This document shows, piece after piece, positions 5,901-35,604 of a stretch of 64,000 nt of DNA; the first letter of the stretch is position 1, and each line of letters starts with the position of its first letter. The stretch is from Oscillospiraceae bacterium (GTDB taxonomy: Bacteria > Bacillota > Clostridia > UMGS1840 > HGM11507). The stretch lies in assembly GCA_015068665.1 (NCBI GenBank), contig SVKB01000001.1, forward strand, positions 40,812-104,811, in the 5' to 3' direction. Both the position numbers and the translations under genes were made by a program. Below the pieces are notes generated by a model. The model did no database searches, had not been told where the DNA came from, and saw only the letters and a program-made list of their open reading frames with translations.

Positions 5901-6744
5901 AAGATATGAATTCCACTATAACGGAAAAACCGGTGTTACAACAGATACCGATACAATTATCACCATCGGTCAGGTTAAAGTAACAGGCTACGGTACATAC
6001 AACTTTAAGGTAGACGGTAATGTTACAACAAATGCTGCTCACTCCACAAAAATGGAAAACAATATTGTTGATACATTTATTCCTGACGGTGATCTTACCG
6101 TTGCAAATCAGGGTGATCTTGATATCTCTGATGATACAATTACAAATGTTACAATCGCAGTTCCTGCAAGAGACCTTACAATCAAGGTAGACTTCCCGAA
6201 CAGTGTTGTAAAGAATGATGCAGAATATCAGGATATGACGGTTGTTGTATCAGGCGGCGACCTTGACAAGGATATTGAAATCAAGCTTGGTGATACCGAT
6301 CTGGATGTTGCACTTACCTATAATGAAAAGGCAGATGCAAAATATACAGTTGATGTAGAAACTGACGGCGGTTACACAATCCTTCTTTCAGATGTTCTTG
6401 CAGTAAACAATGCATACACCGTAACAGTTTCAGGTGCAGGTTACAGAACAGCTCGTTACACAGTAACAATGACTGAAGACAAGACCTTAAGATTCTGGAA
6501 CAACGTTATGGATGAGGCACAGTTCGTTGAAATCGGTAAGGAATCAAGCAAGGTAAATGTTACTTACTTAGCAGGTGATATCGTTAAGGATAACGTTATC
6601 AATATCTATGACCTATCGGCTGTAGTATCCTACTTCGGTTCAACATCTACTGTTGAAAATAAATATGCTAAGTACGATTTAAACCGTGACGGAATAATCG
6701 ATTCTAAAGACGTGGCATACGTACTTGTTTCCTGGGGTAAATAA
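2992..6744 (+). CDS. Gene A: secreted beta-helix protein with cohesin-like module and C-terminal dockerin
   Basis: A 1250-residue secreted protein. Signal peptide 1-26; a GLUG-like/parallel beta-helix region (about 30-310, including FKGKTVKLAADIDL); two further beta-helix blocks of the pectate-lyase-fold type (about 330-560 and 586-850, the latter with KDGEIVYLMPGTYEDEI); a subtype-A cohesin-like module (about 893-1033); a conserved Ig-like segment (about 1053-1163); and a dockerin (1195-1250). The first dockerin calcium loop (D-I-V-K-D-N...) lacks the usual Asn/Asp at position 3 and Gly at position 6; the second (DLNRDGIIDSKD) is canonical. No catalytic motif is evident, so an adhesin, glycan-binding or fibre role is as likely as enzymatic. 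GTG start at 2992, AAGAAGG at 2976-2982. First of five paralogues. Confidence 0.8.
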   Translation: MNLKRILSTVLVIALVLGTMSFTVMADNCDVWDGSVNTDWYNTTDTEFVITTGAQLAGFAKLVNDGTDSFKGKTVKLAADIDLNQVDWTSIGTSANPFLGTFDGGEKTIFNLWGAADANGLFGYTSSGNRADNTGTEAIVKNFTINGAVITDNAQLHNGAAAVIGCGNMHTTVKNVTVTGEIIITGARSGGILGYAYSGAIIDDCHVDGASENMDSHIDALYWACGGIMGFTSNEGTVEITNSSVKNVNINAVNHYGAGGILGNGSGGKVENVLVSNVTCSVAYAEDAVYYVSGGPTATGSVIVSGVTAKVNGVEVEVTGENLSNATLNPPIEVNGEYFNDLAAAFKAVNSEAVINILSDITISTKWNANFGRGSAAGTFNNNPVTINGNDHIIKFTGEINDGYNQMAILRNTADLTVNDLTIDASEAISAWNNRINVISVDSGDLTVDGCEFIGNPNYTKGWAIIFGEGTGDLSDTEISVTNSSFKNFKYGVSDSQAGTEDVASVEISNSVFEAASINVSASEEVTITDNKMDGGYIKVSSYTQSPQQNLIVTVTGNTLDEDFAADNQIQAGTVINAQEGFVLPVATVSGKKYMTLKSAVAAAKDGEIVYLMPGTYEDEITVNTSITITGDPNYGISTPSTKAAIEKPVIKISDVTNGGVEYHAPNVTFDNLVFEVSENATGAGWNISALGYYYEIVKDRDGLTVTNCDFINKSKLSLGAIAANFGEYTVKNNTFKNFTTGVWSFVDHGEAKNVVISDNTYEGVENLVNIYYGAPANGTASVTVTDNKVTDDGEAKIYVGDFGQTKATPATAYNNVVITGNDAEIILGNYAEDSFNDTVENNKSVVYDYENEDVLRNLEQAGVPEGEVYVGYGSDSQIVFKVVDGIVYGAAKFLKVEFEKADTDAAGNDTDENADLYNINIKANDKDMINRLNSADLQFVLTQVHGKNDFEIIASNKEVAVNPVDNSKVRYEFHYNGKTGVTTDTDTIITIGQVKVTGYGTYNFKVDGNVTTNAAHSTKMENNIVDTFIPDGDLTVANQGDLDISDDTITNVTIAVPARDLTIKVDFPNSVVKNDAEYQDMTVVVSGGDLDKDIEIKLGDTDLDVALTYNEKADAKYTVDVETDGGYTILLSDVLAVNNAYTVTVSGAGYRTARYTVTMTEDKTLRFWNNVMDEAQFVEIGKESSKVNVTYLAGDIVKDNVINIYDLSAVVSYFGSTSTVENKYAKYDLNRDGIIDSKDVAYVLVSWGK

Positions 6745-6829
6745 CAGGGAGATGTTAAAATTCTCCGGACCATGCAAAGCAAAGCGTATATAAAGTAGGG
6801 CGTGACGACCCCTGCACGCCGTTATTTGT

Positions 6830-6943
6830 AAATCCTTTGGATTTTCGATATGTTTTGCCAAGGCAAAACTCGATATGTGCTTCGCACTCGATATGTTCCT
6901 TTGGAACTCGATATGTTGCCTTCGGCAACGAGAGGAATAACAC
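6830..6943. repeat. Modular palindrome array 1 (TCGATATG linker, five stems)
   Basis: Five short perfect palindromes with unrelated stems (AAATCC..GGATTT, TTTTGCC..GGCAAAA, TGC..GCA, TTCC..GGAA, TTGCC..GGCAA), mostly with TTC or TTT centres, are separated by a constant (C)TCGATATG linker. The array ends in GAGAGGAATAACAC. It follows a shared 3' flank at 6745-6829 (AGGGAGATGTTAAAATTC..CGGA and a GGCGTG/CACGCC hairpin) that also follows genes D and E. No coding function. Confidence 0.8.
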
Positions 6944-6973
6944 TAATGTTAGAGGCGGGAAGAAAGCCTTCCT

Positions 6974-7148: not shown

Positions 7149-10100
7149 ATGAGAGTAAAAAGATTACTCTGCTCAATTATTGCAATTGCAATGGTATTGA
7201 GTTCAATGGGAACCGTAATTTTTGCGGCTGAAGAGGAAACTGTGGCTCACCTGGCAAGTACAGGCGAAACCTTTACTACCCTTCAGGCTGCCTTTGATGC
7301 GGTTAAAACTATGACAGGTGAAAACCAGATAATTATGGACAAGGACGTAACCGAAAATCTTTTATTGGATGGAAAAGGTTTCAGTCTTTATATGGACGGT
7401 CACACATTAACCGGACAAATCAAGATTTTAAGCGGTGGTTTGACTCTTCGCGGTCATGGAACAAGCGTTCCAAGCAATCGCGGTAAGATTGTTGCTCCCG
7501 GTACAAGTGAGAGCACATATCCTATCTATTGCGTGTCCGATTATGCTAACTCTGCCCATGTATATTTTTCACAGGTAGACATTGAGGCTTCTGACTTAAA
7601 CGGAACAGCAATTTATATGGATAGTGAGGCGCTTGATGTTCAGCTTGTTTCTGATGTAGCTATAACCGGTAACATCCAGGTAAATAAAGGTGCTTTTGTT
7701 GTAAATGAAGCAGATGACGAAAATATCAATAAGGTAACCGGAACCATTACAAATAATGCTCCGGGGGCTGTAGATATAGACGGCGGTCTTTTCTCATCCG
7801 ATCCGTCAGCCTTCCTTGTAGCCGGATTTAAGGCAGAAGCTACTGCTGACGGCTGGAAGGTTGTAAGAGAAAATCTTATACAGACAATTGAGGATTTTGA
7901 TAAGGATGCTGACGGTGCATATCTTATTAAAAATGCAGAACAAATGGTTATTTTCCATACCGAGCTTTCAGCAGGCGGCACAGATACCTTCTTGGGAAAG
8001 GTTTTCAAAATCGCAAATAATATTGATTTATCAGGGAAGACCTTTGTAACGACAGGTAATAAGAATAACCGTTTTGCAGGTACTTTGGATGGTCAGAATT
8101 ATACCTTAAGCAACCTGACTGTTGACGGTGCAGGTAAGAATTACGCTGCTTTTATCGGTTCACTGGCAGCAGAAGGAACCGTAAAAAATATCAAGGTAAA
8201 TAATGCAACGGTAACAGGTTCTACTTACACCGCTGTGCTTGTAGGACAGAGCCGTGCAACTTCAAGCATCGAAAACTGTCATATATCCGGTGATATTAAT
8301 GTTACCGCTACAGGAAACTTCGTAGCAGGTATTGTCGGTGGGGCACAAAGTGCAGGTGTTAACGATTGCTCCGTTTCCGGAACAGGTACAATATCCGGCA
8401 GCTATGCAGTTGGCGGTATTATCGGTATCGTATCAGAGGGTATGGAAAGCATTAATAATAACTCTGTAAACGGTATTTCAGTAACAGGTGGTCAGCGTGT
8501 CGGCGGAATTGCAGGCAGCGTTCTTGTAGCTGCTACAGGACTTGAGGTTAAGAATAATGCAGTTGAGAATGTTACTGTCAGCGGTGACACTTCCGATGCA
8601 GGCTTGATTATCGGCCAGTACAATAAGGTAGTAGGTCAGGTAAAGGTTGCAGAAAATACCGCTGTAGACAGCTCTGCAACAGAAGCAGGTGTTCCTGTAA
8701 CCAACCTTTACGGTGATAATGTAACAGTGGACTACATTTCTTATGTTGCTAAAATCGGCAGTGAATATTTCACTTCCTTCAAGGATGCATTAAATGCTGT
8801 TAAAGCGTCAAAGGATAATGTCATTGTTTTGACTGATGATACTTCTATATCCGGTCAGAATGCTCTTGATGCACTTACAGGTGATACTCTTGATTTAAAC
8901 GGTTACACCTTAACAGTAAGCGGTAACTCGTACTTTAGTGACGGAACAACTACCTTTAAAAACGGTAATATTGTTGTTTCCGGCTATGCAACAGATTCAT
9001 TTTTCTGTGGTTACACTAAAGACGCTGTTATCGTATTTGACGATGTTGTATTAACAGGTGATAACTATAAAACCGGTTGTGCAATATTTAATGCAAATTT
9101 AGGTAAGGTAGAAATTAAAAATTCTGAAATCACAGTTTCGGGTGATACTGTGGGCGGTATTATTTACGGCGGTGAAGCAACAGTTGAAAATACTGATATA
9201 ACCGCAACAAATGTATGCCGCGGTATTACCAACTCTGTTGCAGAAATAAAAGACGGCTCTGCTTTGGATTTTGACGGCGGTGAAACCTGTCTTAACAATT
9301 CTGATGTTACAATTGACAACTCCGAAGTTAAAATTAAAAATGTAACAAAGAGAGCAGTTCGTCTTAATAATAATGAGCTTACTCTTACCAATAACGCTGT
9401 TCTTACCGCAGAAAACTGCGCAGAGGATATCGTTTCCTATAATGCTGAAAGCAAACCTACAGTAAATTGTGATTCATCCTCAACACTTGAAGCTGAATTT
9501 CCGGCTGCAGCGATGATTAACACAATCCGTTATTTAACAATACAGCAGGCCATTGAAGCTGCTGCAGACGGCGACACAATCACACTGTTTGCAGGCGAAT
9601 ATGAAGGCTTTGAAATTCCTGCAAGCAAGAACAATCTTACCATCGTTGGTGAAACAGGCTTGACAAGAAGTGCCGGAAACCTTGTAACCATCAAGACTCT
9701 TGAAGCCGGTATTGAAAGCCACAACGGCGGTATCTTTGTAGGTGCAGAAAACACTACAATTAAAAATATTAACTTCACAGCAGGTACCGTTCCCGGTGCA
9801 AGCTCCGGCTGGATGAGTGCATCAGTAGGTAACACAAACGGTGATACCGGTATGTCAAGCTCACTTAAGAATCTTACAATCGAAAACTGTAACTTCGTGG
9901 GCTCAGGTGCATATCAGGCAATCTGGACAAACCAGGGTAATGTTACAGTAAAGAACACAACAATTAAAAACTACGCAAACGGTATTGACAACTATGGAAT
10001 AGGTGCAGACCAGAAGGTGGTTATTGAAAACAGCAAAATCACAGATGTTCACAATGCATTCCACACAGGTGAAGCAGCTACAGGAGCTCAGATTATTGTT

Positions 10101-11471
10101 AATGAAACAGAAATAGATTCCGAAGTAATCAATGTCGGCGGCGGGGTAGCGGTTACTGTTACCGAAAGCGTAATTAACAATGCTGATGTTACAACCTATT
10201 CAAAATCAACCTTTACGGTTTCCGAATCAGAGCTTTATGACACAAGCTTTGCAGTGGATGAATATGCAACAGGCTCTGTTACACTGGAAGCTGTATATGC
10301 TAATAATGTAAACGAGCTTGCAAATGATGCAGCTGATGAAAAAGTTTCTTTTAATACATATTATGTTGAGAAAAAAGACCTTGGCACAGGAAATACAGTT
10401 GCAGTTCCAAAGGCAACCGACGTGGTTTATGTTACATTTGATTTAGATAAAAATGCTGAAGGCGAAAGAATATACGACATCAACCTTGTTGGCTCTAACG
10501 GAAAAATCATCAACAGACTTAACTCTGCAGACCTTACCTTCTCCTTTGATGTTACAGAAGGCAATGTAGACTATGAAATCATAGCTTCCAACAGCGAGGT
10601 TTCAGTTAACCCTGTTGATAACAGCAAAGTAAGATATGAATTCCATTATGACGGAAAAACCGGCGTTACAACCGACAGCAAAAACGAAATCACAATCGGT
10701 CAGGTTAAGTTTACCGGCTACGGTAAATTCAGCTTTGCAGTAGATACAAATGTAACTACAAATGTTGCACACGCAACAACAGTTGCAGATAATATTGTTG
10801 ACACCTTTATTCCTAATGATGATGCTACTACTGATGCAGACGGCGAGCTTGTAATCAATGACGAAACCATCAAAGATATTACTATCGCTGTTCCTGACAG
10901 AAATCTTACCATCAACATTGACTTCCCGAACAGCGTTGAAAATAAGGAAATTGCATATCAGGATATGCAGGCTGTAATCTCAGGCGGAGACCTTGCAAAG
11001 GATATAACAATTGACCTTGGTTCCGATGCAGCAGATACCGCTCTTGATATCTTCGGTAAGAAGGATGCTAAGTTCTCGGTTAAATTTGAAAACGGCTCTT
11101 ACGTAATAAACGTAACCGATGCTCTTACCCTTAACAATGCATACACCGTAACAATTTCAGGTGCAGGCTACAGAACAGCACGTTACACAGTAACAATGAC
11201 TGAAGACAAGACCTTAAGATTCTGGAATAACGTTATGGATGAGGCGCAGTTTGTTGAAATCGGTAAGGAATCAAGCAAGGTAAATGTTACCTACTTAGCT
11301 GGCGATATCGTTAAGGATAACAATATCAATATCTACGACTTATCAGCTGTAGTATCCTACTTCGGTTCAACAGCTACTGTTGCAAATAAATATGCTAAGT
11401 ACGATTTAAACCGTGACGGTATAATCGACTCTAAAGACGTGGCATATGTACTTGTTTCCTGGGGCAAATAA
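7149..11471 (+). CDS. Gene B: secreted beta-helix protein with cohesin-like module and C-terminal dockerin
   Basis: A 1440-residue paralogue of gene A and the longest of the set. Signal peptide 1-26 (MRVKRLLCSIIAIAMVLSS...), a short helix block (about 40-230), a GLUG-like region (about 248-525, with NRFAGTLDGQNYTLSNLTV), two further beta-helix blocks (about 530-785 and 789-1060), a subtype-A cohesin-like module (about 1090-1230), an Ig-like segment and a dockerin (1385-1440). Expected outside the cell; no wall anchor of its own, so attachment would rely on the dockerin. ATG at 7149 with AGAAGG 7 nt upstream. Preceded by a structured leader RNA, unlike genes A and C. Bases 10885-11471 are almost identical to the end of gene D. 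Confidence 0.8.
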   Translation: MRVKRLLCSIIAIAMVLSSMGTVIFAAEEETVAHLASTGETFTTLQAAFDAVKTMTGENQIIMDKDVTENLLLDGKGFSLYMDGHTLTGQIKILSGGLTLRGHGTSVPSNRGKIVAPGTSESTYPIYCVSDYANSAHVYFSQVDIEASDLNGTAIYMDSEALDVQLVSDVAITGNIQVNKGAFVVNEADDENINKVTGTITNNAPGAVDIDGGLFSSDPSAFLVAGFKAEATADGWKVVRENLIQTIEDFDKDADGAYLIKNAEQMVIFHTELSAGGTDTFLGKVFKIANNIDLSGKTFVTTGNKNNRFAGTLDGQNYTLSNLTVDGAGKNYAAFIGSLAAEGTVKNIKVNNATVTGSTYTAVLVGQSRATSSIENCHISGDINVTATGNFVAGIVGGAQSAGVNDCSVSGTGTISGSYAVGGIIGIVSEGMESINNNSVNGISVTGGQRVGGIAGSVLVAATGLEVKNNAVENVTVSGDTSDAGLIIGQYNKVVGQVKVAENTAVDSSATEAGVPVTNLYGDNVTVDYISYVAKIGSEYFTSFKDALNAVKASKDNVIVLTDDTSISGQNALDALTGDTLDLNGYTLTVSGNSYFSDGTTTFKNGNIVVSGYATDSFFCGYTKDAVIVFDDVVLTGDNYKTGCAIFNANLGKVEIKNSEITVSGDTVGGIIYGGEATVENTDITATNVCRGITNSVAEIKDGSALDFDGGETCLNNSDVTIDNSEVKIKNVTKRAVRLNNNELTLTNNAVLTAENCAEDIVSYNAESKPTVNCDSSSTLEAEFPAAAMINTIRYLTIQQAIEAAADGDTITLFAGEYEGFEIPASKNNLTIVGETGLTRSAGNLVTIKTLEAGIESHNGGIFVGAENTTIKNINFTAGTVPGASSGWMSASVGNTNGDTGMSSSLKNLTIENCNFVGSGAYQAIWTNQGNVTVKNTTIKNYANGIDNYGIGADQKVVIENSKITDVHNAFHTGEAATGAQIIVNETEIDSEVINVGGGVAVTVTESVINNADVTTYSKSTFTVSESELYDTSFAVDEYATGSVTLEAVYANNVNELANDAADEKVSFNTYYVEKKDLGTGNTVAVPKATDVVYVTFDLDKNAEGERIYDINLVGSNGKIINRLNSADLTFSFDVTEGNVDYEIIASNSEVSVNPVDNSKVRYEFHYDGKTGVTTDSKNEITIGQVKFTGYGKFSFAVDTNVTTNVAHATTVADNIVDTFIPNDDATTDADGELVINDETIKDITIAVPDRNLTINIDFPNSVENKEIAYQDMQAVISGGDLAKDITIDLGSDAADTALDIFGKKDAKFSVKFENGSYVINVTDALTLNNAYTVTISGAGYRTARYTVTMTEDKTLRFWNNVMDEAQFVEIGKESSKVNVTYLAGDIVKDNNINIYDLSAVVSYFGSTATVANKYAKYDLNRDGIIDSKDVAYVLVSWGK

Positions 11472-11662
11472 CAAAGCGAAGCTTTGTAGTTTTATTCGCC
11501 TTACGGCGAGTGGTATTACTTCGTAGTTTTATTTGCTTCGCAAGTGGTATTGTGCTTTGCACAGTTTAATAAAGGCGGATAAAATACCACTGAAACCGTC
11601 AGGTTTCAATAACACTTTTGATTTATCAAAAATATCACTCCGTACAAGGTACGGAATAACAC
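11472..11662. repeat. Palindrome array with alternating, inverted linkers, copy 1
   Basis: Nine short palindromes (for example CAAAGC..GCTTTG, TCGCC..GGCGA, TTGC..GCAA, GTGC..GCAC, TGAAAC..GTTTCA, TTTTGAT..ATCAAAA, TCCGTAC..GTACGGA). In the left half the linkers alternate AGTTTTAT and GTGGTATT; in the right half they are ATACCAC, ATAACAC, ATATCAC, ATAACAC. GTGGTAT is the reverse complement of ATACCAC, so the two halves are in opposite orientation around 11562-11583. It starts directly after the stop codon of gene B. A near-identical copy follows gene C. Confidence 0.8.
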
Positions 11663-11695
11663 TAAAAAAATTTGAGGCGGGAAGAAAGCCTTCCC

Positions 11696-11760
11696 CCTCT
11701 TTCAAAGGACATAGGCTTTTTCCTGTGCCTTTTGAAAGAGGGCTTTTGTCCTTTTTAAAA
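11696..11760 (+). terminator. Conserved intergenic hairpin, copy 2 (close to the gene C start)
   Basis: Arms 11696-11715 and 11722-11741 pair almost perfectly and are followed by GGCTTTTGTCCTTTTT. Only about 35 nt separate it from the ATG of gene C at 11785, too little for a promoter. Either gene C depends on read-through, or the hairpin acts as an attenuator or processing site. Confidence 0.6.
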
Positions 11761-11784
11761 ATAAAAAAGAAAGAAGGAAAAAAC

Positions 11785-14700
11785 ATGAGAGTAAAAAGAT
11801 TACTCTGCTCAATTATTACAATTGCAATGGTATTGAGCACAATGAGCTTTACAGCTCTTGCAGGAACATCCGAGTTAGGCGAAGCAGACTTCGATACTAA
11901 CAATGGTGTGGTTTTTGATGGTGCGAACTATTATGCATCATTAACCGAAGCACTTGCCGGTGTTCATGCACAAAAGGATGCAGTCCTTTACTGCAAGCCC
12001 GATGCAGATCTCGGTACTATGACGCATGGTCATGTATGCCAGAATCTTACTGTTTATGGTAATGGTGCATACTTATCCGGTGGTGAACAGGATTTTGAAG
12101 TTGACATGTACGAATGTCCCGGTATTGGTCCTGTTGGAAGTGGTCTCACTGAGGATGTAACACTTACAGTGTACAATCTTACAGGCGCAGGTGCTTGGGG
12201 AACCAGACAATCTGATTACACAGTAAACTTTGTTTTTGAAGACTGTCAGGATATGGGCAAGATTTATTTGACCGGTATAAACGGAAAAAATAACATTACC
12301 CTTACAGATTGTACATTTACAAGTAATGATGTGTCTGCTTGCAAGGTGTATTCAAATGCCGCAGGCGTAATAACACTTACAAATGTTGATTTTTCAAATG
12401 TTGATCAGCCTGTTGCTCTTAACAACAAATCGACAGGAACACAAACCATCTGTTTGACAGATTGTGATTTTAACACCTGCGGAGCTGCAACTTACGATTG
12501 GACAGTTCCGGTTAGCATTAAGTCCTCTGTGGATGGTGGTAATTCAGTTGTTACTGTTGATAATTGTACATTTGCTGGTACTGTTGCTAATAGTATCGGA
12601 CAAGATGCAGATATTCTTCTTGACTTCGGTGTTGGAGAAACTACTGCAACTATTCTTAATACAGCAGCAAAGGTTGGCGTGGAAACAGAAGCAAATGTTG
12701 CTGACTATGCAACACTTACAACAGAGGATGTTGCATCGATGACAAATGAAAGTGCTACTGTTAACGCTCTTGTTGCAAAAATCGGAGATGTATATTACAC
12801 AACACTTAAAGAGGCAATTAAAAATGCCGTAGAGGGGGATACAATTTACCTTATCGGAACAATCAACGAAGGTAGCATTAAACTCCCTGCAACAATCAGA
12901 AATCTTACAATAGACGGTCAGGGAATTGCTGTTGTTAAAGATACTGTAATCACTGCGGCTGATGGAAATCACGTTGATGTTCAGGGATTTACAGTTAAGA
13001 ACACAACCTTTGATAATTCAAGATTTGTTCTTGGCGGACAGAGAAGCGGCGATGTAATTTACAAGGACCTCGTATTTGAAGGCAATACCTTTACAAATAT
13101 TGTAAATACATCCAGTATGGCTGCAGTTCACATGAACATTGGTTCTGAAGATAATGAATATGTAGAGAACTTCAAATTCATTAACAACACAATTGACGGT
13201 GTGACAGGTTCTTCAAATTCAGGCGTTTTGATGAAAAATGCAAAGGGCGATGTTATTTTTGAAGGCAACACAATTTCTAATGTTGTAAACAATGCAATCC
13301 AGTGCATCAATGCAAAAGCAGATATTAACCTTGTTATCAAAAATAACAATCTTTCTGCTGATTTGGGTAGTGTTCTTAACCTTTACAATGTTCCTGCAGT
13401 TACACTTGAAAACAACACTTTCAATCTTAACGAAGGACAAAAAGACCTTGGTAACTTCTCTGCTATTGCTAAAATCGGCAATACATATTATGCAAATCTT
13501 CAGGCAGCTGTTGATGCAGCAGAAGAAGGCGATACAATCGTTCTTGCAAGTGACATCGAATATGAAGTTAATCCGACTGCTGACTCCACAAATACGGACA
13601 GCAACTGCTTAATTCATACCGATAAAGATGATGTGATTACACTTGACCTTAACGGAAAAACAATTTCTGTAAAAGGCAGTGACGAAGCAAAATATGATAC
13701 ACTTGCGATCCGCAACAACGGTAATCTTACCATTGTAGATAACGGCATTGCAAGAAGTGCAGGCACAATAACTCTTGCTTATGATGGTACTCAGGAGGTT
13801 GGTTCATCTCAGATTCATTCAACAATCCTTAACTTCGGTACTCTTACAGTTAATGGTGGTAATATTAAGAATACTGCAACATCGGGTAAAGCAAGATATG
13901 CTATCTACAACTATTCTTGGGGCGGCAACGCAAATGTTACCATAAATGGCGGTTCAATTGATTCGGATTCTACACTTGCACTGTACACATCTGCTTATGA
14001 TGATTTCTCTAAGAATACTTGCAATGTGACAATTAACGGTGGCGAAATTGATGGTGTATGGTATTCTAACACAGGTGCTACGGCAGGTGCTTCTCTTACT
14101 ATCAACGGCGGTGACTTTGGTGGTGACTACAACGGTGCAGCTGTAACAATCAAAGAACCTGCAGCCGGTAATACCACACTTGCAGTTACAGGCGGTAACT
14201 TTGTTAAATCCGAAAATGATTCTATCGTTTACTCAAGCACTGATGCTTCTGTTGCTGCATTTATTTCCGGTGGTACATTCTCTTCAAACGTATCTGCTTA
14301 TGCAGCAGATGGCTATGATGTTGTAAGAACTGCAGACAAATATGTAGTTGAACCTGAAAACGCACAGGCTGACAGTATCAGCGTTGAATATGTGGATGTA
14401 ACCGAAGCAGGCGTTGAAGGTGAAAAGACATACGAAATCGTTGTAAAAGCTAATCAAGGCGATGTAATCAATGAACTTGCATCTGTTGACCTTTCATTTG
14501 TATATACAACAGCTCCTGTGACAGGTGGTAATATTGAATTTACAGTTGCTCCTGCAGCAGATTTCACAATCTCAAGATACGAAAACACAAACAGATATAT
14601 GTTCAACTATAACGGCACAACTGCTTTTGAAGGCACATCCGATGCGATTACAGTTGGTACAATCAAAGTAGTTGGTTATGGTAAATTCACAATTGCAACA

Positions 14701-15378
14701 GATACTGCTGATACAAACATTGTAAATGCAACAACTTTAAATGACAACCTCGTTGATTCTTATACAGTGGCAGGTGCAACAGATAATGACGCTACAACTG
14801 GTGCTCTTGATATCACCGGTAATGTTGATACAGAAATCGCAGTTCCTACAAGAACACTTACAATCAACCTCGACTTCCCGAACGCTGTAAAAGATAACGC
14901 TAAAGCATATCAGGATATGAAAGTTGAAATCACGGGTAACATTGATGGTGTTAATAAGACTGTTGTTTACAACCTTGGTGAAGACGAAGTAGCTATGGAT
15001 AATGGTTCTTATGTTGTTACAGAAGGCAAACTCGTTCTCAATAATGCATATACAGTAACAGTTTCAGGTGCAGGCTACAGAACAGCTCGTTACACAGTAA
15101 CAATGACTGAAGACAAGACCTTAAGATTCTGGAATAACGTTATGGATGAGGCGCAGTTCGTTGAAATCGGTAAGGAATCAAGCAAGGTAAATGTTACTTA
15201 CTTAGCAGGTGATATCGTTAAGGATAACGTTATCAATATCTACGACTTATCAGCTGTAGTATCTTACTTCGGTTCAACATCTACTGTTGAAAATAAATAT
15301 GCTAAGTACGATTTAAACCGTGACGGAATAATCGACTCTAAGGATGTAGCTTATGTACTTGTTTCTTGGGGTAAATAA
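11785..15378 (+). CDS. Gene C: secreted beta-helix protein with cohesin-like module and C-terminal dockerin
   Basis: A 1197-residue paralogue. Signal peptide 1-26, nearly identical to gene B; three beta-helix blocks (about 45-305, 328-553, 556-856; the last has the repeated LTINGG/VTINGG pattern); a subtype-B cohesin-like module (about 861-1010, shared with gene E rather than A, B or D); an Ig-like segment; a dockerin (1142-1197). The open frame continues upstream to 11533, but that part is palindrome array and hairpin; the ATG at 11785 has AAGAAGG at 11771-11776 and opens a proper signal peptide. N-terminus matches gene B while the cohesin-like module matches gene E, so the protein looks mosaic. 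No catalytic residues recognised. Confidence 0.8.
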   Translation: MRVKRLLCSIITIAMVLSTMSFTALAGTSELGEADFDTNNGVVFDGANYYASLTEALAGVHAQKDAVLYCKPDADLGTMTHGHVCQNLTVYGNGAYLSGGEQDFEVDMYECPGIGPVGSGLTEDVTLTVYNLTGAGAWGTRQSDYTVNFVFEDCQDMGKIYLTGINGKNNITLTDCTFTSNDVSACKVYSNAAGVITLTNVDFSNVDQPVALNNKSTGTQTICLTDCDFNTCGAATYDWTVPVSIKSSVDGGNSVVTVDNCTFAGTVANSIGQDADILLDFGVGETTATILNTAAKVGVETEANVADYATLTTEDVASMTNESATVNALVAKIGDVYYTTLKEAIKNAVEGDTIYLIGTINEGSIKLPATIRNLTIDGQGIAVVKDTVITAADGNHVDVQGFTVKNTTFDNSRFVLGGQRSGDVIYKDLVFEGNTFTNIVNTSSMAAVHMNIGSEDNEYVENFKFINNTIDGVTGSSNSGVLMKNAKGDVIFEGNTISNVVNNAIQCINAKADINLVIKNNNLSADLGSVLNLYNVPAVTLENNTFNLNEGQKDLGNFSAIAKIGNTYYANLQAAVDAAEEGDTIVLASDIEYEVNPTADSTNTDSNCLIHTDKDDVITLDLNGKTISVKGSDEAKYDTLAIRNNGNLTIVDNGIARSAGTITLAYDGTQEVGSSQIHSTILNFGTLTVNGGNIKNTATSGKARYAIYNYSWGGNANVTINGGSIDSDSTLALYTSAYDDFSKNTCNVTINGGEIDGVWYSNTGATAGASLTINGGDFGGDYNGAAVTIKEPAAGNTTLAVTGGNFVKSENDSIVYSSTDASVAAFISGGTFSSNVSAYAADGYDVVRTADKYVVEPENAQADSISVEYVDVTEAGVEGEKTYEIVVKANQGDVINELASVDLSFVYTTAPVTGGNIEFTVAPAADFTISRYENTNRYMFNYNGTTAFEGTSDAITVGTIKVVGYGKFTIATDTADTNIVNATTLNDNLVDSYTVAGATDNDATTGALDITGNVDTEIAVPTRTLTINLDFPNAVKDNAKAYQDMKVEITGNIDGVNKTVVYNLGEDEVAMDNGSYVVTEGKLVLNNAYTVTVSGAGYRTARYTVTMTEDKTLRFWNNVMDEAQFVEIGKESSKVNVTYLAGDIVKDNVINIYDLSAVVSYFGSTSTVENKYAKYDLNRDGIIDSKDVAYVLVSWGK

Positions 15379-15569
15379 CAAAGCGAAGCTTTGTAGTTTT
15401 ATTCGCCTTACGGCGAGTGGTATTACTTCGTAGTTTTATTTGCTTCGCAAGTGGTATTGTGCTTCGCACAGTTTAATAAAGGCGGATAAAATACCACTGA
15501 AACCGTCAGGTTTCAATAACACTTTTGATTTATCAAAAATATCACTCCGTACAAGGTACGGAATACCAC
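15379..15569. repeat. Palindrome array with alternating, inverted linkers, copy 2
   Basis: Nearly identical to the array at 11472-11662 and placed the same way, directly after a dockerin-gene stop codon. The differences seen are GTGCTTTGCAC becoming GTGCTTCGCAC (centre only) and the last linker ATAACAC becoming ATACCAC. Stems are unchanged. Confidence 0.8.
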
Positions 15570-15599
15570 TAATGTTAGAGGTGGGAAGCACCGCTTCCC

Positions 15600-15647
15600 C
15601 CTCTTTCAAAAGGCATAGATGAAACATGCTGTGCCTTTTGAAAGAGG
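15600..15647 (+). terminator. Conserved intergenic hairpin, copy 3
   Basis: Arms 15600-15615 and 15632-15647 (CCTCTTTCAAAAGGCA with TGCCTTTTGAAAGAGG) pair perfectly over 16 bp. AATATTTCTTCTTATT follows, a weak U-rich tract. The arm sequence differs from the other copies in a paired way (AAGGCA/TGCCTT). Confidence 0.6.
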
Positions 15648-15663
15648 AATATTTCTTCTTATT

Positions 15664-15798
15664 GATAAATACTCAGCATAACTGAGTTATTTATAAAGGG
15701 CGGCGAGCAGCAAATTCCTTGCTCGGTGCTTTATGTGGCAGTTGCTTTTATGAGCAACGTCCAATAACAATTTATTAAACATGAGAACTGCCACATGG
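15664..15798 (+). other. Hairpin-rich 5' region upstream of gene D
   Basis: Non-coding stretch with several possible stems: ATAAATAcTCAG with CTGAgTTATTTAT (about 15664-15694), CGAGCA with TGCTCG (about 15701-15725), and ATGTGGCAGTT with AACTGCCACAT at about 15734-15797 enclosing GTTGCT/AGCAAC. It separates hairpin copy 3 from leader RNA copy 3. No repeat family recognised. Confidence 0.4.
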
Positions 15799-15827
15799 CA
15801 CTATGGAGGTGAGGAAATCAATTAACA

Positions 15828-15906
15828 CATTGTTCAGCCAGGTTACAGAGGACGGGTGAATGATGATGCTCAAACTCTCTGTTCGTGGGCGAAAGCGATA
15901 ATTTCG
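15828..15906 (+). ncRNA. Structured 5' leader RNA with two putative pseudoknots, copy 3 (divergent)
   Basis: CATTGTTCAGCC (15828-15839) pairs with GGGTGAATGATG (15854-15865) except one G-G mismatch. The stem is 12 positions and the loop 14 nt, as in copy 1, but the stem sequence is unrelated. Loop ACAGAG plus a wobble G pairs with TCTCTGT at 15876-15882. A second stem TCGT/GCGA replaces CCGC/GCGG, and loop CGAAA can pair with downstream TTTCG. Conserved bases include GG..ACAGAG.AC and GCGARAGCGRWAATTTCG. It ends about 16 nt before AAAAGAGG of gene D. Confidence 0.55.
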
Positions 15907-15940
15907 TGAAAATTTAATAAAGAAAAGAGGTAATTTTTAA

Positions 15941-16621
15941 GTGAAACTTAAAAGACTTTTGGCTTCAATCCTTGCACTGACTATGATGTTTAGTATGATG
16001 AGCTTTTCTGTATCTGCTGAAAACACAGTAAGTGTATGGGATGGAACGATTGACAGAACATGGTATGATGCTAACCCGACAGCGGATTCATATACCATTA
16101 CAACAGCAGCACAGTTTGCAGGTATAGCAGATATTTGTAATACCGTTGCTTCAAACACAGGTGTTCACCCTTTCAAGGGACAGACCATTTATCTTGGTGT
16201 AGATATCAATCTTAATGGTAATAATTTTTCTCCTATTGGAGATGCTTCAGTCGACCATAGATATTTCTACGGTTCTTTTGACGGTCAGGGACACACTATT
16301 TCAAATATAAAAATTGAAAGTGGATCTGCTAAGTATGTAGGTTTGTTTGGTAAAACAGGAAATCCAAGCTATAACCAGACTTTTGAAAATGTTACACTTG
16401 AGAATGTAACAGTTTTAGCAGATGGTGCACAGTTTGTCGGCGGATTAATCGGCCGTGCTGATAAATCAATTGTTACCAATGTTAATGTTATAGGTGAAAT
16501 CAAAATTTCAGGAGATCGTTTCGTAGGCGGTGTTCTTGGACATTCTTATGCACAGATTTCGGATTGCTCAGTTGAAGCTTCAGGTACAATCAATGCTAAC
16601 ACTTGGCAGGCGGTCTTGTAG
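15941..16621 (+). CDS. Gene D, N-terminal fragment (frameshifted beta-helix/dockerin paralogue)
   Basis: A 226-residue fragment: signal peptide (1-26), then a GLUG-like repeat region resembling the N-terminus of gene A (VWDGTIDRTWYD..., FKGQTIYLGVDINL, YFYGSFDGQGHTI). The frame closes at a TAG at 16619-16621, while the same fold resumes in another frame from about 16606. Conceptually it joins the fragment at 16603-20523 into one protein of about 1527 residues. GTG start at 15941 with AAAAGAGG at 15923-15930, matching the start of gene A. The break is at TGGCAGGCGGTC; one extra base, or a lost 4-bp copy of the GGCA repeat, would restore the frame. It may be a true mutation or an assembly error. 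Confidence 0.65.
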   Translation: MKLKRLLASILALTMMFSMMSFSVSAENTVSVWDGTIDRTWYDANPTADSYTITTAAQFAGIADICNTVASNTGVHPFKGQTIYLGVDINLNGNNFSPIGDASVDHRYFYGSFDGQGHTISNIKIESGSAKYVGLFGKTGNPSYNQTFENVTLENVTVLADGAQFVGGLIGRADKSIVTNVNVIGEIKISGDRFVGGVLGHSYAQISDCSVEASGTINANTWQAVL

Positions 16622-19600
16622 GTGCACATTATGCCGCAGATGGTGCAAGCGTTTCTAACTGTTCAGTAAACGGTGGTGCAAGCGACCTTACAGTTACCAG
16701 CTATTATGCAGCAGCTGGTGGTGTTATAGGTACAGTAAACCTTGTTGATGGTGTAGAACCGGTTATTGATGGCATCACTGTTTCAAATGTTACAGTTAAA
16801 GCTGATTCTACCGACTACGGCGCAGGTGTTGCTCTTGTTGCAAGCGGCTACAGTGCAACCAACACAACCGTAAGCAATGTTGAAACAACCCTTGCAGGTG
16901 AAGCTAATGCTCCCGCTGATGCTGAAGCAACCGTTAACGGTAAATACTGCTTATCCTTCTATGATGCAGTAAAGAACGCTCAGACCGGTGATAAAATAGA
17001 ATTACTTGCTGATGTTACCTGCGATTTATGGAAATCTGTTTGGAATAAGACAGATCTTACAATCAACGGTAATGGACATACAGTTACTGTTAAAGCAATT
17101 GATTCCGATGTTAATGGTGGTGCAATGCTGAGAAGTGCTACAAATCTTACCATCAAAAATATAAAGATTGCTCTTCCTTCTCCTGCAACCGGAGAAATGG
17201 AAAGAGTTGCAACTATGAACGGCGGTACTTTTGAAAATGTAAGTGTAACAGGCGGTTCCTTTGCATTTTCTGTTCTTGGTGACAATAATGTAGTTATCAA
17301 TAACTGTAATTTCGCAGACATCAACGAATGGGCAATTGAAACTGAAGGTAAAGCAAAGGATGCTTCACTTACAATTTCTAACAGCACATTTGATGACAAA
17401 GCAGTTATTATAAGAGGTAATAACACAGTATTTACCGATAACACAATCAAAAATGCCGGTGAAGGCGTAAACGTTCTTGGTAACGCTGTAATCAAGGGTA
17501 ATGACTTTGGTGAAAGTACACTTGGTATTGACAAGGGCGTTGATGTTACTATAGAAGAAAACGTTATCAACAATGTTAAATTCACCTCCTGGCTTTCCGG
17601 TGACTATTCAAAAGTAACAGTTGAAAACAATACTTTAAGTGATGAAGCTGTTACCGAAATGAACAACACTCTTGAAGAAGAAATCGTAAGTGTTGATCCT
17701 GTTGCCAAGGTTAACGGCAAGGGCTATTACAGCTTCGGTGATGCAGTTAAAAATGCCAAGGATACAGACGGTGACGGTGTGGTTACCATCGAAGTTTACG
17801 GTAAGGCAGTAATCGGTGCAACCTTCCAGCTTAATGTTTCCTGTGACACATTAAACATTGTCGGCATGAATGCCGCTGCTGAAATTTGTGTAGAAACTAA
17901 TATTCCTTCGGATAACGGTATTTTATATGTAGCAAACAATGCTATCGAAGCTCTTAACTTCAAGGATATTAAGTTATCAAGACCTAACGGTGAATGGAGA
18001 GGTAACGAAGGTCACCACAATCGTTTCTTCACTGTCTGGGATAATGACGGAAGCGCAGACATCACATATACAAACTGTGTATTCCCTAACGGCGCAGGTA
18101 ACAACCAGTACGGAAAAACAACTTATACAGGCTGTACCTTCAACAATCCTTCATACTATGCATTATGGATTTACGGAAGCGCTGACAAGGGCGTTGTAGA
18201 AGTTACAGACTGTACATTTGATGCTGACAGAGGTGTTAAAATCTACTCTGAAGACGGCGCAGCTAAAGTAAAAACAACAATTACAGATTCTACATTTGCT
18301 ATCGACAGCAAGCCTGCAATTGTTTCTTCAATCGCCGGTGAGCTTGTTATAGAGGATGTTGATACATCAGCTTGTAAGTACGGTCTTTTAGCTTCCGAGC
18401 CTAAGGACGGCAGAGCTGATTTGGAATTTGCAGAAATTACCGTTGACGGTGAAGAACCTGTATATGTTGCTCAGGTTGGTAATATGGTTTGCACAGATAT
18501 GGATTATGCAGAAGCAGAAAAAACTGATGCTAAACCTATTGAAGCTCCTGTAGCAAAGGTTGGCACAAAATACTATGCAAATCTTCAGAAGGCTGTTGAT
18601 TCAGCAAATGAAAACGATGTAATCAGAGTTTTTGCAGGCACCTATGATGCTACAAATCTTAAGATTACAAAGAATGTTATCATTACAGGTGATCCTTCCT
18701 ACGGTATTTCAACCTTCGCAGCTTCAGCTAATATAGAAAAACCTGTTTTCCTTATCAAAGAGGTTGCTGACGGCGGTATTAAATATCAGGCTACAAATGT
18801 AACCTTTGATAATATTGTATTCAAGGTTACAGAGGATGCAACAAGAACAGGCGGATATTACCCTTGTGCACTTGGTTATTTTGTAGAAGATAACAAAACA
18901 AGAAATACTCTTACAGTTACAGACTGTGATTTTGTAAATAACAGCTCTGTACCGGGTTTGATTGCCATTATGGCTCACATTCCTAACTACACAGTAACAG
19001 GCTGTACCTTTGAAAACTTCAGTACTGTTATCTACACAGCTCTTGATAACAGCGCTTTGGGAACAGTAAATGTTTCTGATAATACCTTCGCCAAGGTAGC
19101 TGAGCTTTACACCGGTTACTGGGGCAAGGAAAACGCTAATGCAGTTCTTACTATCAGCAATAACAAAGCAACTGATGACAGCACAACTGTAATTAACGTA
19201 TATGACTACGCAAAAGAAACAATCGGTGCAACAGCTACTGCATTTAATAAGGTTACAGTAACTGATAACGATGCAAAGGTTATTCTTACAAACTATGATA
19301 CAAATGACTTTGACTCAACCATCAGCGGTAATGACAGTGTAGTTTACACATATAAATCAAAAGCTCTTCTTGATTCTGTTGATTATCCGAAAACCAAGGT
19401 TTATGTAGGCTATAACTCAGATAATGAAGTTGCATATCTTTACATCGACGGAAACCTTGTTACTGTTCCTGATGCAATTAAAGTAGAGTTTGAAGCTGCC
19501 GGTGAAGAAGAAGGCGAAAAGACTTACAACATCAATCTTACAGCTGACAGCGATAAAATCATCAACAGACTTAACTCGGTTGATTTAACCTTCGTTCTTA

Positions 19601-20523
19601 CTCAGATAAAGGGTGCAAATGAATTTGAAATCATTGCTTCAAATAAAGAAGTTGCAATCAATCCTGTTGATAACAGCAAGGTAAGATATGAATTCCACTA
19701 TAACGGAAAAGACGGAGTAAAGACTGACAGTGCAAACACTATCACAATCGGCCAGGTTAAATTTACCGGCTACGGTGAATTCAGCTTTGCGGTAAATAAA
19801 GATGTAACTACAAATGCTGCTCATGCAACTACTATTGATGATAATATTGTTGATACATTTATTCCTGACGGTGATACAACAGTTATTTCAAACGGCGAGC
19901 TTGTTATTGACAATGCAACAACAGGTAAAATTGAAATCGCTGTTCCTGACAGAAATCTTACCATCAACATTGACTTCCCGAACGGCATTGAAAACAAGGA
20001 AATTGCATATCAGGATATGCAGGCAGTAATCTCCGGCGGAGACCTTGCAGAGGATATAACAATTGACCTTGGTTCCGATGCAGCAGATACCGCTCTTGAT
20101 ATCTTCGGTAAGAAGGATGCTAAGTTCTCGGTTAAATTTGAAAACGGCTCTTATGTAATTAACGTAACCGATGCTCTTACCCTTAACAATGCATACACCG
20201 TAACAATTTCAGGTGCAGGCTACAGAACAGCTCGTTACACAGTAACAATGACTGAAGACAAGACCTTAAGATTCTGGAATAACGTTATGGATGAGGTGCA
20301 GTTTGTTGAAATCGGTAAGGAATCAAGCAAAGTAAATGTTACTTACTTAGCAGGTGATATCGTTAAGGATAACAATATCAATATCTATGACTTATCAGCT
20401 GTAGTATCTTACTTCGGTTCAACAGCTACTGTTGCAAATAAATATGCTAAGTACGATTTAAACCGTGACGGCGTAATTGATTCTAAGGACGTAGCTTATG
20501 TACTTGTTTCTTGGGACAACTAA
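16603..20523 (+). CDS. Gene D, main fragment: beta-helix protein with cohesin-like module and dockerin
   Basis: A 1306-codon open frame that continues gene D. It starts within the GLUG-like repeat (AGGLVGAHY directly continues the upstream repeat), then has beta-helix blocks (about nt 16890-17680, 17690-18540 and 18545-19420), a subtype-A cohesin-like module (about nt 19470-19900), an Ig-like segment and a dockerin (nt 20356-20523). There is no signal peptide in this fragment, and the nominal start is an internal TTG without a ribosome site, so it is unlikely to be made as an independent secreted protein unless the frame is intact in vivo. The last 580 bp or so are almost identical to gene B; the final residues are DN rather than GK. 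Confidence 0.65.
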   Translation: MAGGLVGAHYAADGASVSNCSVNGGASDLTVTSYYAAAGGVIGTVNLVDGVEPVIDGITVSNVTVKADSTDYGAGVALVASGYSATNTTVSNVETTLAGEANAPADAEATVNGKYCLSFYDAVKNAQTGDKIELLADVTCDLWKSVWNKTDLTINGNGHTVTVKAIDSDVNGGAMLRSATNLTIKNIKIALPSPATGEMERVATMNGGTFENVSVTGGSFAFSVLGDNNVVINNCNFADINEWAIETEGKAKDASLTISNSTFDDKAVIIRGNNTVFTDNTIKNAGEGVNVLGNAVIKGNDFGESTLGIDKGVDVTIEENVINNVKFTSWLSGDYSKVTVENNTLSDEAVTEMNNTLEEEIVSVDPVAKVNGKGYYSFGDAVKNAKDTDGDGVVTIEVYGKAVIGATFQLNVSCDTLNIVGMNAAAEICVETNIPSDNGILYVANNAIEALNFKDIKLSRPNGEWRGNEGHHNRFFTVWDNDGSADITYTNCVFPNGAGNNQYGKTTYTGCTFNNPSYYALWIYGSADKGVVEVTDCTFDADRGVKIYSEDGAAKVKTTITDSTFAIDSKPAIVSSIAGELVIEDVDTSACKYGLLASEPKDGRADLEFAEITVDGEEPVYVAQVGNMVCTDMDYAEAEKTDAKPIEAPVAKVGTKYYANLQKAVDSANENDVIRVFAGTYDATNLKITKNVIITGDPSYGISTFAASANIEKPVFLIKEVADGGIKYQATNVTFDNIVFKVTEDATRTGGYYPCALGYFVEDNKTRNTLTVTDCDFVNNSSVPGLIAIMAHIPNYTVTGCTFENFSTVIYTALDNSALGTVNVSDNTFAKVAELYTGYWGKENANAVLTISNNKATDDSTTVINVYDYAKETIGATATAFNKVTVTDNDAKVILTNYDTNDFDSTISGNDSVVYTYKSKALLDSVDYPKTKVYVGYNSDNEVAYLYIDGNLVTVPDAIKVEFEAAGEEEGEKTYNINLTADSDKIINRLNSVDLTFVLTQIKGANEFEIIASNKEVAINPVDNSKVRYEFHYNGKDGVKTDSANTITIGQVKFTGYGEFSFAVNKDVTTNAAHATTIDDNIVDTFIPDGDTTVISNGELVIDNATTGKIEIAVPDRNLTINIDFPNGIENKEIAYQDMQAVISGGDLAEDITIDLGSDAADTALDIFGKKDAKFSVKFENGSYVINVTDALTLNNAYTVTISGAGYRTARYTVTMTEDKTLRFWNNVMDEVQFVEIGKESSKVNVTYLAGDIVKDNNINIYDLSAVVSYFGSTATVANKYAKYDLNRDGVIDSKDVAYVLVSWDN

Positions 20524-20599
20524 CAGGGAGATGTTAAAATTCCCCGGATCATGCAAAGCAAAGCGTATATAAAGTAGGGCGTGACGACCCCGGCACGCC

Positions 20600-20708
20600 A
20601 AGCCCTCCTTGCCTAAAGGAGGGGGGACCGCTTTAGCGGTGGGAGGATTTCCGATATAAATCCTTCGGATTTTCGATATGTTGCCTTCGGCAACGAGAGG
20701 AATAACAC
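20600..20708. repeat. Intergenic repeat and modular palindrome array 2 (two stems)
   Basis: The spacer after gene D opens with the same 3' flank as gene A (20524 onward). It continues with two stems, CCCTCC/GGAGGG and CCGCT/AGCGG (about 20600-20648). The TCGATATG array at 20658-20708 has only the first and last stems of array 1 (AAATCC TTC GGATTT, and TTGCC TTC GGCAA), ending in the same GAGAGGAATAACAC. Confidence 0.75.
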
Positions 20709-20738
20709 TAATGTTAGAGGCGGGAAGCCAAGCTTCCC

Positions 20739-20798
20739 CCTCTTTCAAAGGGCATAGGCTTTTTCCTGTGTCTTTTGAAAGAGGGTTTTTGTCCTTTT
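20739..20798 (+). terminator. Conserved intergenic hairpin, copy 4
   Basis: Arms 20739-20758 and 20765-20784 pair over about 20 positions (wobbles and one mismatch) and are followed by GGTTTTTGTCCTTTT. Typical intrinsic-terminator form; probably ends gene D transcription or attenuates gene E. Confidence 0.65.
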
Positions 20799-20804
20799 AA
20801 AAAC

Positions 20805-20883
20805 ACGGTATCTGACCGGCAACAGAGAACGTCAGCTACCGTAACTAAAATCTCTGTCCGCAAAGCGAGAGCGGAAATTTCGC
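20805..20883 (+). ncRNA. Structured 5' leader RNA with two putative pseudoknots, copy 2
   Basis: Base-for-base the same as copy 1 over the whole 79-nt element, and similarly placed: it follows hairpin copy 4 and ends 12 nt before GAAAGAAGG of gene E. The sequence after the element differs between copies, so identity stops close to the proposed structural boundary. Confidence 0.55.
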
Positions 20884-20911
20884 AAATACAAAATGAAAGA
20901 AGGCGTTTTTA

Positions 20912-23900: not shown

Positions 23901-24280
23901 ACGGCTCTTACGTAATAAACGTAACCGATGCTCTTACTCTTAACAATGCATACACCGTAACAATTTCAGGAGCAGGCTACAGAACAGCTCGTTACACAGT
24001 AACAATGACTGAAGACAAGACCTTAAGATTCTGGAATAACGTTATGGATGAGCAGCAGTTCGTTGAAATCGGTAAGGAATCAAGCAAAGTAAATGTTACC
24101 TTCCTTGCAGGCGATATCGTTAAGGATAACAATATCAATATCTATGACTTATCAGCTGTAGTATCCTACTTCGGTTCAACAGCTACTGTTGCAAATAAAT
24201 ATGCTAAGTACGATTTAAACCGTGACGGCGTAATTGATTCTAAGGACGTAGCTTACGTACTTGTTTCTTGGAACAACTAA
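20912..24280 (+). CDS. Gene E: secreted beta-helix protein with cohesin-like module and C-terminal dockerin
   Basis: A 1122-residue paralogue, the shortest intact one. Signal peptide 1-26; beta-helix blocks with the VGDVEYATIDEAISAW start and repeated ISGGIF/INGGT turns (about 30-750); a subtype-B cohesin-like module (about 762-910) close to gene C; an Ig-like segment; a dockerin (1067-1122) with first calcium loop degenerate and second canonical. The start is a TTG at 20912, 9 nt after GAAAGAAGGCG, the same spacing as the GTG of gene A; the only nearby ATG overlaps the ribosome site in another frame. Preceded by leader RNA copy 2. No enzymatic motif recognised. Confidence 0.8.
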   Translation: MTLKKLFAVVLCLTMLISTMGTLTFAQENGAVAKVGDVEYATIDEAISAWTNNSTLTLLADVQLSDVITLKSTEHHILNLGTYTMTAASGKNVFEVTACGTGASERGCITINADADNLGTIDAGSKSIVYYDYSKGTATGDDRPIVYVKGGHFIGSTAAFGTAGFYFKGGSKARYAMTLNISGGIFDCTINGQGKSKLIISGGIFNYSVGSQGDSTANRLIYGGRFKTFGFMTADSNNTKFWIGTKMAVSDVGVCIDDEGYIVIGGPVIEANDGRFEAYTTSYGKWSNLLQYSSAAEKGVYIETLESAMKKASSSTIIKVVADIKDADLKTTSTTILDMTDDSADFEGTIKLGGSSHKLTVITTADKAFEGRVIAADGYALTKSIDETGKIVYQNDKDENAVAVINDEFKYTSINEAINAAQDGDTIKILLDVELSAQDANAALKPVYNRESYAGLIIPDDKELTIDLNGKTISYVDEYFECDNLAIINLGNLTINDSVGSGKITYKPVAGSSTYSKFYSTIFNCGTLTINGGIIENTCDTATDVSNAVDNHSRLSHEYGNDCILVVNGGTLIGSEYRAIRQYTHYLEGVQNRVTINDGVIKGGIYQQHGDSWYYPNPADNRLNVDCYLTINGGTITSLDDGYGHVRMALSNPDNNAFGLEINGGAIEVPVQVYVQRGYRYGDDGLGGSLVSGDDSNARTAEWLEKNGGFISGGTFTELGNADDSKTNLHGFLAENFELQRTGADLYTVVAADGAEDALTADTISIEYKDITAADAEGEKVYEIVVKANGDDEIHELASVDLSFAFSTTPVVDGNMEIVVLPATDFTMTRYENSDRYMFNYNGTTAFEGTGNAISVGTITVTGYGAYTISTDDADTNIVNATTLQDNLVDFYVANGAEDADLTTGGLVINEDTVAGDGLVGKVESDVIAVPVRNLAVTIDFPNAVENKEIAYQDMKAVISGGDLAKDITIDLGSDAVETPIVIDGKVDAKYTAAMVDGSYVINVTDALTLNNAYTVTISGAGYRTARYTVTMTEDKTLRFWNNVMDEQQFVEIGKESSKVNVTFLAGDIVKDNNINIYDLSAVVSYFGSTATVANKYAKYDLNRDGVIDSKDVAYVLVSWNN

Positions 24281-24357
24281 CAGGGAGATGTTAAAATTCC
24301 CCGGACCATTTGCGAAGCTTTGTAGATATCGGTAGGGCGTGACGACCCCGGCACGCC

Positions 24358-24529
24358 AAGCCCTCCTTGCCTAAAGGAGGGGGGACCGCTTTAGCGGTGG
24401 GAGGATTTCCGATATAAATCCTTCGGATTTTCGATATGTTTTGCCAAGGCAAAACTCGATATGTGCTTCGCACTCGATATATTCCTTTGGAACTCGATAT
24501 GTTGCCTTCGGCAACGAGAGGAATAACAC
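24358..24529. repeat. Intergenic repeat and modular palindrome array 3 (five stems)
   Basis: After the flank shared with genes A and D (24281 onward), the CCCTCC/GGAGGG and CCGCT/AGCGG repeat occurs at about 24358-24405. At 24416-24529 a TCGATATG array carries the same five stems in the same order as array 1, with AAATCC TTC GGATTT in place of the TTT centre and one linker changed to TCGATATA. A degenerate copy of a CGTTGGA..TCCGACG stem follows at about 24530-24560. Confidence 0.75.
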
Positions 24530-24580
24530 TTAGGCGTTGGAGAGCTATCCGACGGCTGGAGGCGGGAAGCCTTGCTTCCC

Positions 24581-31279: not shown

Positions 31280-31329
31280 AAAGCGTAAAAATTCCCCGGA
31301 CCACGCAAAGCAAAATAATATAAATAGAA

Positions 31330-35543: not shown

Positions 35544-35604
35544 AAATTCTTCGGATTGTCGATATGTTCCTTCTAAACTCGATATGTTGCCTTACGGCAA
35601 CGAG
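35544..35604. repeat. Modular palindrome array 4 (degenerate TCGATATG type)
   Basis: Three decayed stems (AAATTC TTC GGATT, TTCC..AAA, TTGCC TTAC GGCAA) separated by TCGATATG linkers. The last stem is intact with TTAC in place of TTC. An older or weakly selected member of the arrays at 6830, 20658 and 24416. Confidence 0.65.

Follow-up and report, generated by a model that had tools for sequence, protein, structure and literature searches.

The trp RNA-binding attenuation protein (TRAP) is a ring protein that sits on repeated (G/U)AG words in RNA. Closer to the arrays described here are the intervening sequences (IVSs) of 23S rRNA genes that carry an S23p/PF05635 open reading frame (ORF); discussion of their mobility goes back to the 1990s but has offered no mechanism, and in the Coxiella IVS tandem heptamers (GACAGAT) lie just upstream of the S23p ORF (PMC4990558). 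The PF05635 proteins themselves are functionally uncharacterised (PMC11270868). Arrays of 7-nt words, TAACTGA among them, also occur in cyanobacteria, Beggiatoaceae and Bacteroidetes, where they were described as possible regulatory sites, in a text that does not mention the 23S IVP, S23 or four-helix protein (PMC4679880). Here we analysed a 64,000-nt stretch of an Oscillospiraceae genome (contig SVKB01000001.1; hereafter, the window), in which two palindrome arrays follow genes B and C. Judging from sequence, these arrays are probably non-autonomous copies, lacking the gene, of a small mobile element whose PF05635 protein would recognise the array words, probably as DNA.

Each array consists of four AGTKNTATT words and a fifth, degenerate one, a centre, and four inverted AATANMACT words, with small hairpins between them (Table 1). 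The original prediction described two head-to-head half-arrays meeting near 11562-11583, and the direction of the words indeed switches at 11563-11584: the 191-nt stretch contains seven strict words in the order FFFFRRR (F, forward; R, reverse), whereas 20,000 Markov shuffles gave 0.07 such words on average and never more than 3. Over the whole window there are 36 occurrences of AGTKKTAT, with 14.8 expected and none of 100 shuffles as high. The 5' hairpin of copy 1 matches the position of the GCCGAGTG...CACTCGGC hairpin in the complete elements described below. Copy 2 repeats the organisation of copy 1 at an offset of +3907 and, much as predicted, differs from it by one loop base and one word base. 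Since the 92.3% identity extends over 506 nt and into coding sequence, the two copies go back to a single duplication of a gene end and are not independent witnesses; the gene 3' ends before the arrays are near-identical (11130-11429 and 15037-15336, 300 nt at 95%). More broadly, positions 7149-24280 hold tandem long secreted-type genes with near-identical 3' ends and an array remnant after each, and the arrays may have helped these duplications.

Table 1. Arrays, half-arrays and hairpins in the window.
Feature	Position	Strand	Basis
Array, copy 1	11471..11663	+	
5' hairpin ACAAAGC-GAA-GCTTTGT, copy 1; first base is the last base of the gene B stop codon	11471..11487	+	direct reading
Forward half-array, copy 1; words AGTTTTATT at 11488 and 11525, AGTGGTATT at 11509 and 11543, degenerate AGTTTAATA at 11563	11488..11571	+	word-order tests
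Forward half-array hairpins, copy 1: TCGCC-TTAC-GGCGA, AC-TTC-GT, TTGC-TTC-GCAA, TGTGC-TTT-GCACA	within 11488..11571	+	
Centre, copy 1; GGCGGATAAAA (11574-11584) complements TTTTATTCGCC (11490-11500), forming long-range stem P1	11572..11584	+	27-copy alignment
Reverse half-array, copy 1; words AATACCACT at 11583, AATAACACT at 11608 and 11655, AATATCACT at 11631	11583..11663	+	direct reading and helix covariation
Reverse half-array hairpins, copy 1: TGAAACC-GTCA-GGTTTCA, TTTTGAT-TTAT-CAAAA, TCCGTAC-AAG-GTACGGA	within 11583..11663	+	
Array, copy 2, organised like copy 1; within a duplication taking in upstream coding sequence	15378..15570	+	
TCGATATG-family forward half-array after gene A, ending in the AGTKNTATT right-hand word GGAATAACACT (best read as a chimeric junction)	6845..6944	+	
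TCGATATG half-array with AGTKNTATT right end (best read as a chimera), shortened, after gene D	20673..20709	+	
TCGATATG half-array with AGTKNTATT right end (best read as a chimera), after gene E	24431..24530	+	
TCGATATG half-array remnant	35559..35600	+	
AATTCATG words and hairpins; word also at PF05635 loci L163 and L159	35647..35750	+	direct reading
CATTCTG heptamer array, 5.6 copies; same word (CAGAATG) in arrays flanking PF05635 locus L129	35756..35794	+	

The array is part of a dispersed repeat of about 175 bp. A 269-nt query detected this repeat in 14 of 99 related genomes and gave 8 matches in the array's own genome. The alignments typically run from AGTTTTATT to AATANCACT, i.e. about 11488-11670, and the layout of 4(+1) forward and 4 reverse words is general among the copies, many of which, in genomes G086 and G050, are located at the ends of contigs, as multi-copy sequence would be expected to be. 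The alternation of two linkers, originally taken as the rule of the array, turned out to be a chance local feature within one word family: the four forward positions in other family members carry a mix of AGTTTTATT, AGTGGTATT, AGTGATATT and AGTTATATT, and a genome-wide search placed the exact AGTGGTAT...AGTTTTAT succession only at the two window sites in the 2.2-Mb genome. An exact 24-nt pattern searched across GTDB contigs gave a sole match, a chance one inside a coding gene.

Some copies are complete elements, in which a PF05635 gene, absent from the window copies, is the only gene. They consist, in order, of an inverted repeat or hairpin, 4(+1) forward modules, the centre, four inverted modules, a promoter, the gene for a four-helix-bundle protein of about 115 aa, a terminator and an inverted repeat, and they sit in the loop of a rho-independent host terminator hairpin. 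At locus L057 of the same genome (G000:C10) a TTGAAA-TATAAT promoter comes after the array and precedes an intact gene; the product of this gene matches 23S_rRNA_IVP (PF05635, E 1.5e-28) and TIGR02436 (four helix bundle protein), with a weak match to Avd. Its flanks read AAAAAGCCACTC-GTAT-[element]-GTAT-GAGTGGCTTTTT, a terminator interrupted by the element, and in the sister genome G001 the orthologue of the host gene (95% identical protein) has, at the corresponding site, the uninterrupted terminator AAAAAAGGTTTTGCG...CGCAAAACCTTTTTT soon after its stop codon. Once rejoined, the flanks fold into terminator hairpins at L057 (-19.5 kcal/mol), L063 (-20.1), L066 (-12.1) and L076 (-21.3), and into a weaker one at L080. 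For the gene upstream of L063, no orthologue was found in nine relatives. The outer ends are inverted repeats of about 20 nt (GCCGAGTGTYCTTAAGGACA at L080), and the gene-less L066 element has repeats of about 21 nt (about 16/21 matching) inside the terminator.

These elements share with the 23S IVSs the protein family, terminal inverted repeats and insertion in an RNA hairpin. Unlike IVSs, they lie in terminators of protein genes or after tRNA genes and not in rRNA (L057, L063, L066 and L076 are all in terminator hairpins of other genes), their modules carry hairpins and invert halfway, and many copies are gene-less.

The module that is repeated within the array is a conserved word of 7-9 nt followed by a freely varying but covarying hairpin of 10-18 nt. 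Across 27 aligned arrays, 95.9% of the local-hairpin cells are paired and 17 pairs have changed on both sides (0/500 shuffles); helices 3-5, in the reverse half, are 96-99% paired, with 14 such pairs, and stem cells with double changes number 66 against 15.4 (0/500 shuffles). Conservation is 91% in word columns, 85% in inner stems and 73% elsewhere. Stem P1, which joins the first word and first arm to the centre and competes with hairpin 1, is paired in 97.3% of cells with 15 two-sided changes (0/500 shuffles). The switch of orientation was predicted to recur in other copies, and it does so in at least ten word families. Over ten of these, loops are G..A in the reverse half (35:0) and T..C in the forward half (28:1; p 2.6e-17); the loop types flip with word direction, and therefore word and hairpin invert jointly as one module. 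Read in the frame of the word, most loops are 3-4 nt long, 104 of 130 such loops being closed by C-G, and the commonest types are GNA and GNNA, with a purine at GNNA position 3 in 14 of 30 cases, i.e. no preference. GNA and GNNA loops form a class of ultra-stable DNA mini-hairpins (PMC4686876), and the observed types fit these and not the GNRA loops of RNA, which is mild evidence, from sequence, for a function at the DNA level.

Covarying stems and the competition between P1 and hairpin 1 would also suit an RNA element, that is, a leader or 3' untranslated structure that is bound by the PF05635 protein in a TRAP-like autoregulation, or that stabilises the transcript, its spread being incidental. 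G-T cells in the stems exceed A-C cells by 25 to 7, and by 7 to 1 in a separate hairpin set, an asymmetry that is suggestive but comes from too few independent events; and the arrays of the AATTTAGC and ATATCGM families sit between an upstream -10-like box and the gene. In the AGTKNTATT family, however, the array precedes the promoter of the gene and hence is outside the mRNA leader. The mirrored loops of the forward half are unexpected if a single transcript strand matters, GNNA loops lack the purine preference, most copies have no gene, and the Rfam 15 covariance models gave no match in the window at gathering thresholds. We therefore regard an RNA element as unlikely, although it retains some weight.

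PF05635 genes beyond the AGTKNTATT family are preceded by arrays of the same layout built from at least ten other words, including TCGATATG, AATTCATG, AATTTAGC, ATATCGA, ATATCGC, ATATCATT, ATTTCAC, ACATCATT, ACATCACT, ACTTCACT and ATTTCATT, typically in the order ----++++. The survey of these words covered 60 stretches around PF05635 genes from related genomes. By an exact-7-mer test, 29 of the 61 clostridial loci are significant, whereas of 200 random placements in the 36-64 kb part of the window just 1 is; a smaller control of 12 gene flanks gave one significant case. The test is sound for homogeneous words but blind to degenerate families such as AGTKNTATT, so that 29/61 is a floor for the visible arrays. 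Among plasmid and phage records with PF05635 genes, 9 of 12 pass. Arrays of heptamers or hairpin words accompany PF05635 genes of Bernardetia, Treponema, Nostoc, Planktothrix, Dolichospermum, Euhalothece and two phage bins; the loci of cyanobacteria, Bacteroidota and spirochaetes have plain heptamer arrays, several of them on both sides of the gene. The PF05635 tree tracks the word across host families, with 13 changes where the minimum is 11 and the shuffled mean 30.1 (0/200).

Several loci vary in arrangement or neighbourhood. At L130 and L139 a reverse half-array, the gene and a forward half-array follow each other, a circular permutation of the usual forward-reverse-gene order. The elements at L131, L142, L147, L149, L152, L158 and L164 start directly past a tRNA gene and its terminator, and at L131, L149 and L158 the terminator's 3' arm (GTCGATTTTT) recurs in the element centre. 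Other PF05635 genes (L193, L194, L190 and L195) lie inside or beside restriction-modification and other defence genes, for instance between hsdS and hsdR in Monoglobus and beside drmD and MmeI in Planktothrix.

Small dispersed extragenic palindromes, head-to-head copies and a partner gene are also features of repetitive extragenic palindromic (REP) sequences and bacterial interspersed mosaic elements (BIMEs) with their REP-associated tyrosine transposase (RAYT; Y1 HUH), and the gene-less L066, short and with inverted repeats, might be compared with a miniature inverted-repeat transposable element (MITE). The arrays might then be ordinary repeats of these kinds, moved by an unrelated transposase with the PF05635 gene as a passenger, as their dispersal, short inverted repeats, numerous gene-less copies and one Y1 transposase in G000 (249-aa frame) would allow. 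We consider this decidedly unlikely: protein clades track the words, at least ten word families pair an identical grammar with a PF05635 gene, and G001 has arrays and PF05635 genes with no match to Y1_Tnp or RVT_1 (a Y1 transposase was likewise not matched in the array-carrying G097). Unlike in REPs, the words are conserved and the stems vary, there is no GTAG/CGTC foot, and the partner is PF05635.

Retro-mobility through an RNA copy, with the four-helix protein in the role that Avd has in diversity-generating retroelements, finds some favour in the weak Avd similarity (NF033474, E 0.0012) and in the likeness of hairpin-loop insertion to 23S IVS sites. It is highly improbable, since RVT_1 has no match in eight genomes with PF05635 elements (G000, G001, G005, G007, G017, G050, G086 and G097), unlike in those retroelements, and L182, a PF05635-related gene beside a reverse transcriptase, failed the array test at the cut-off (p 0.03). 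A reverse transcriptase and a Y1 transposase as obligatory partners were rejected, element-bearing genomes being found without either, albeit in fragmented assemblies.

The preferred reading, a mobile element with a word-recognising PF05635 protein, can be given a candidate mechanism. TRAP offers a working analogy only, a ring on a repeated short word; it is an unrelated protein with an RNA ligand, and it shows neither inversion nor mobility. By this analogy, a PF05635 ring would bind several words at once, the hairpins being looped-out spacers between bound words and the opposed half-arrays being bound as opposite DNA strands, and the complex may direct insertion at single-stranded hairpin loops. 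That a ring could read several words is made plausible by the closest solved relative, 2RLD, which has five chains, and by Xcc0516, another relative, which is described as five four-helix bundles in a reference cited in PMC3936711. Gene-less copies, including the two window arrays, would be served in trans by a cognate protein made elsewhere in the genome. Cognate genes are present at L057, at L130 and L132 (for TCGATATG), and at L127 and L128. Pattern searches located 194 adjacent TCGATATG pairs in the genome and none of the reversed pattern, set against only seven PF05635 matches in all, so that gene-less copies dominate.

Several points weigh against this reading. The direct repeats at insertions are short and uneven (about 2-7 nt), and the placement in terminator loops rests on relatives (L057, L063, L066 and L076), the window copies following protein genes. 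About half of the clostridial PF05635 loci, many of them in more distant clostridia, have no exact-word array. Word and protein are physically linked, and co-inheritance alone could give the match between tree and words. The excess of G-T over A-C could point to a transcript, and in several families the array lies in the likely 5' leader of the gene. To our knowledge, no catalytic domain or activity is known for PF05635.

Four word families are represented in the window, by copies or by remnants: AGTKNTATT (two), TCGATATG (five places), AATTCATG and CATTCTG. The TCGATATG arrays, which had been thought to follow a different grammar, are a sister family with an identical one. Their link to the AGTKNTATT arrays through a shared ATAACAC end, also proposed originally, was supported: the arrays after genes A, D and E have a AATAACAC end that also closes the AGTKNTATT array on the right (as at 11650-11663 and at L058-L060). 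The best interpretation is a chimeric junction, at GGAAT, between this right-hand end and a TCGATATG half-array, which accounts for ATAACAC in both families. At 35559-35794 the TCGATATG, AATTCATG and CATTCTG families follow consecutively, which suggests nested or neighbouring insertions at a single site. A further dispersed repeat, AAAATTCCCCGGACCAYGCAAAGC, occurs at L058-L060 and at 6744-6800, 20523-20580, 24280-24330 and 31284-31345 of the window; arrays are inserted into or beside it, forming mosaics of several repeat families.

In the open-access literature (preprints not included) we found no description of these elements and no report of a link between PF05635 genes and word arrays; the PF05635 family and the IVSs are already known, and the mobile element is apparently undescribed. 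It is possible, though we advance it tentatively, that PF05635 proteins in general are sequence-specific DNA-binding, possibly recombining proteins of pan-bacterial minimal mobile elements that insert at single-stranded hairpin loops, 23S IVSs, cyanobacterial heptamers and clostridial arrays being one class, its words forming a variable address code that a protein ring reads. A unified reading of IVSs, heptamer repeats and palindrome arrays would be categorically new. The arrays name the probable ligand of each common PF05635 protein, and more than ten natural protein/word pairs are available for recognition tests. If true, many short palindrome and heptamer repeats of bacteria would be one class of mobile element, with terminators as safe landing sites.

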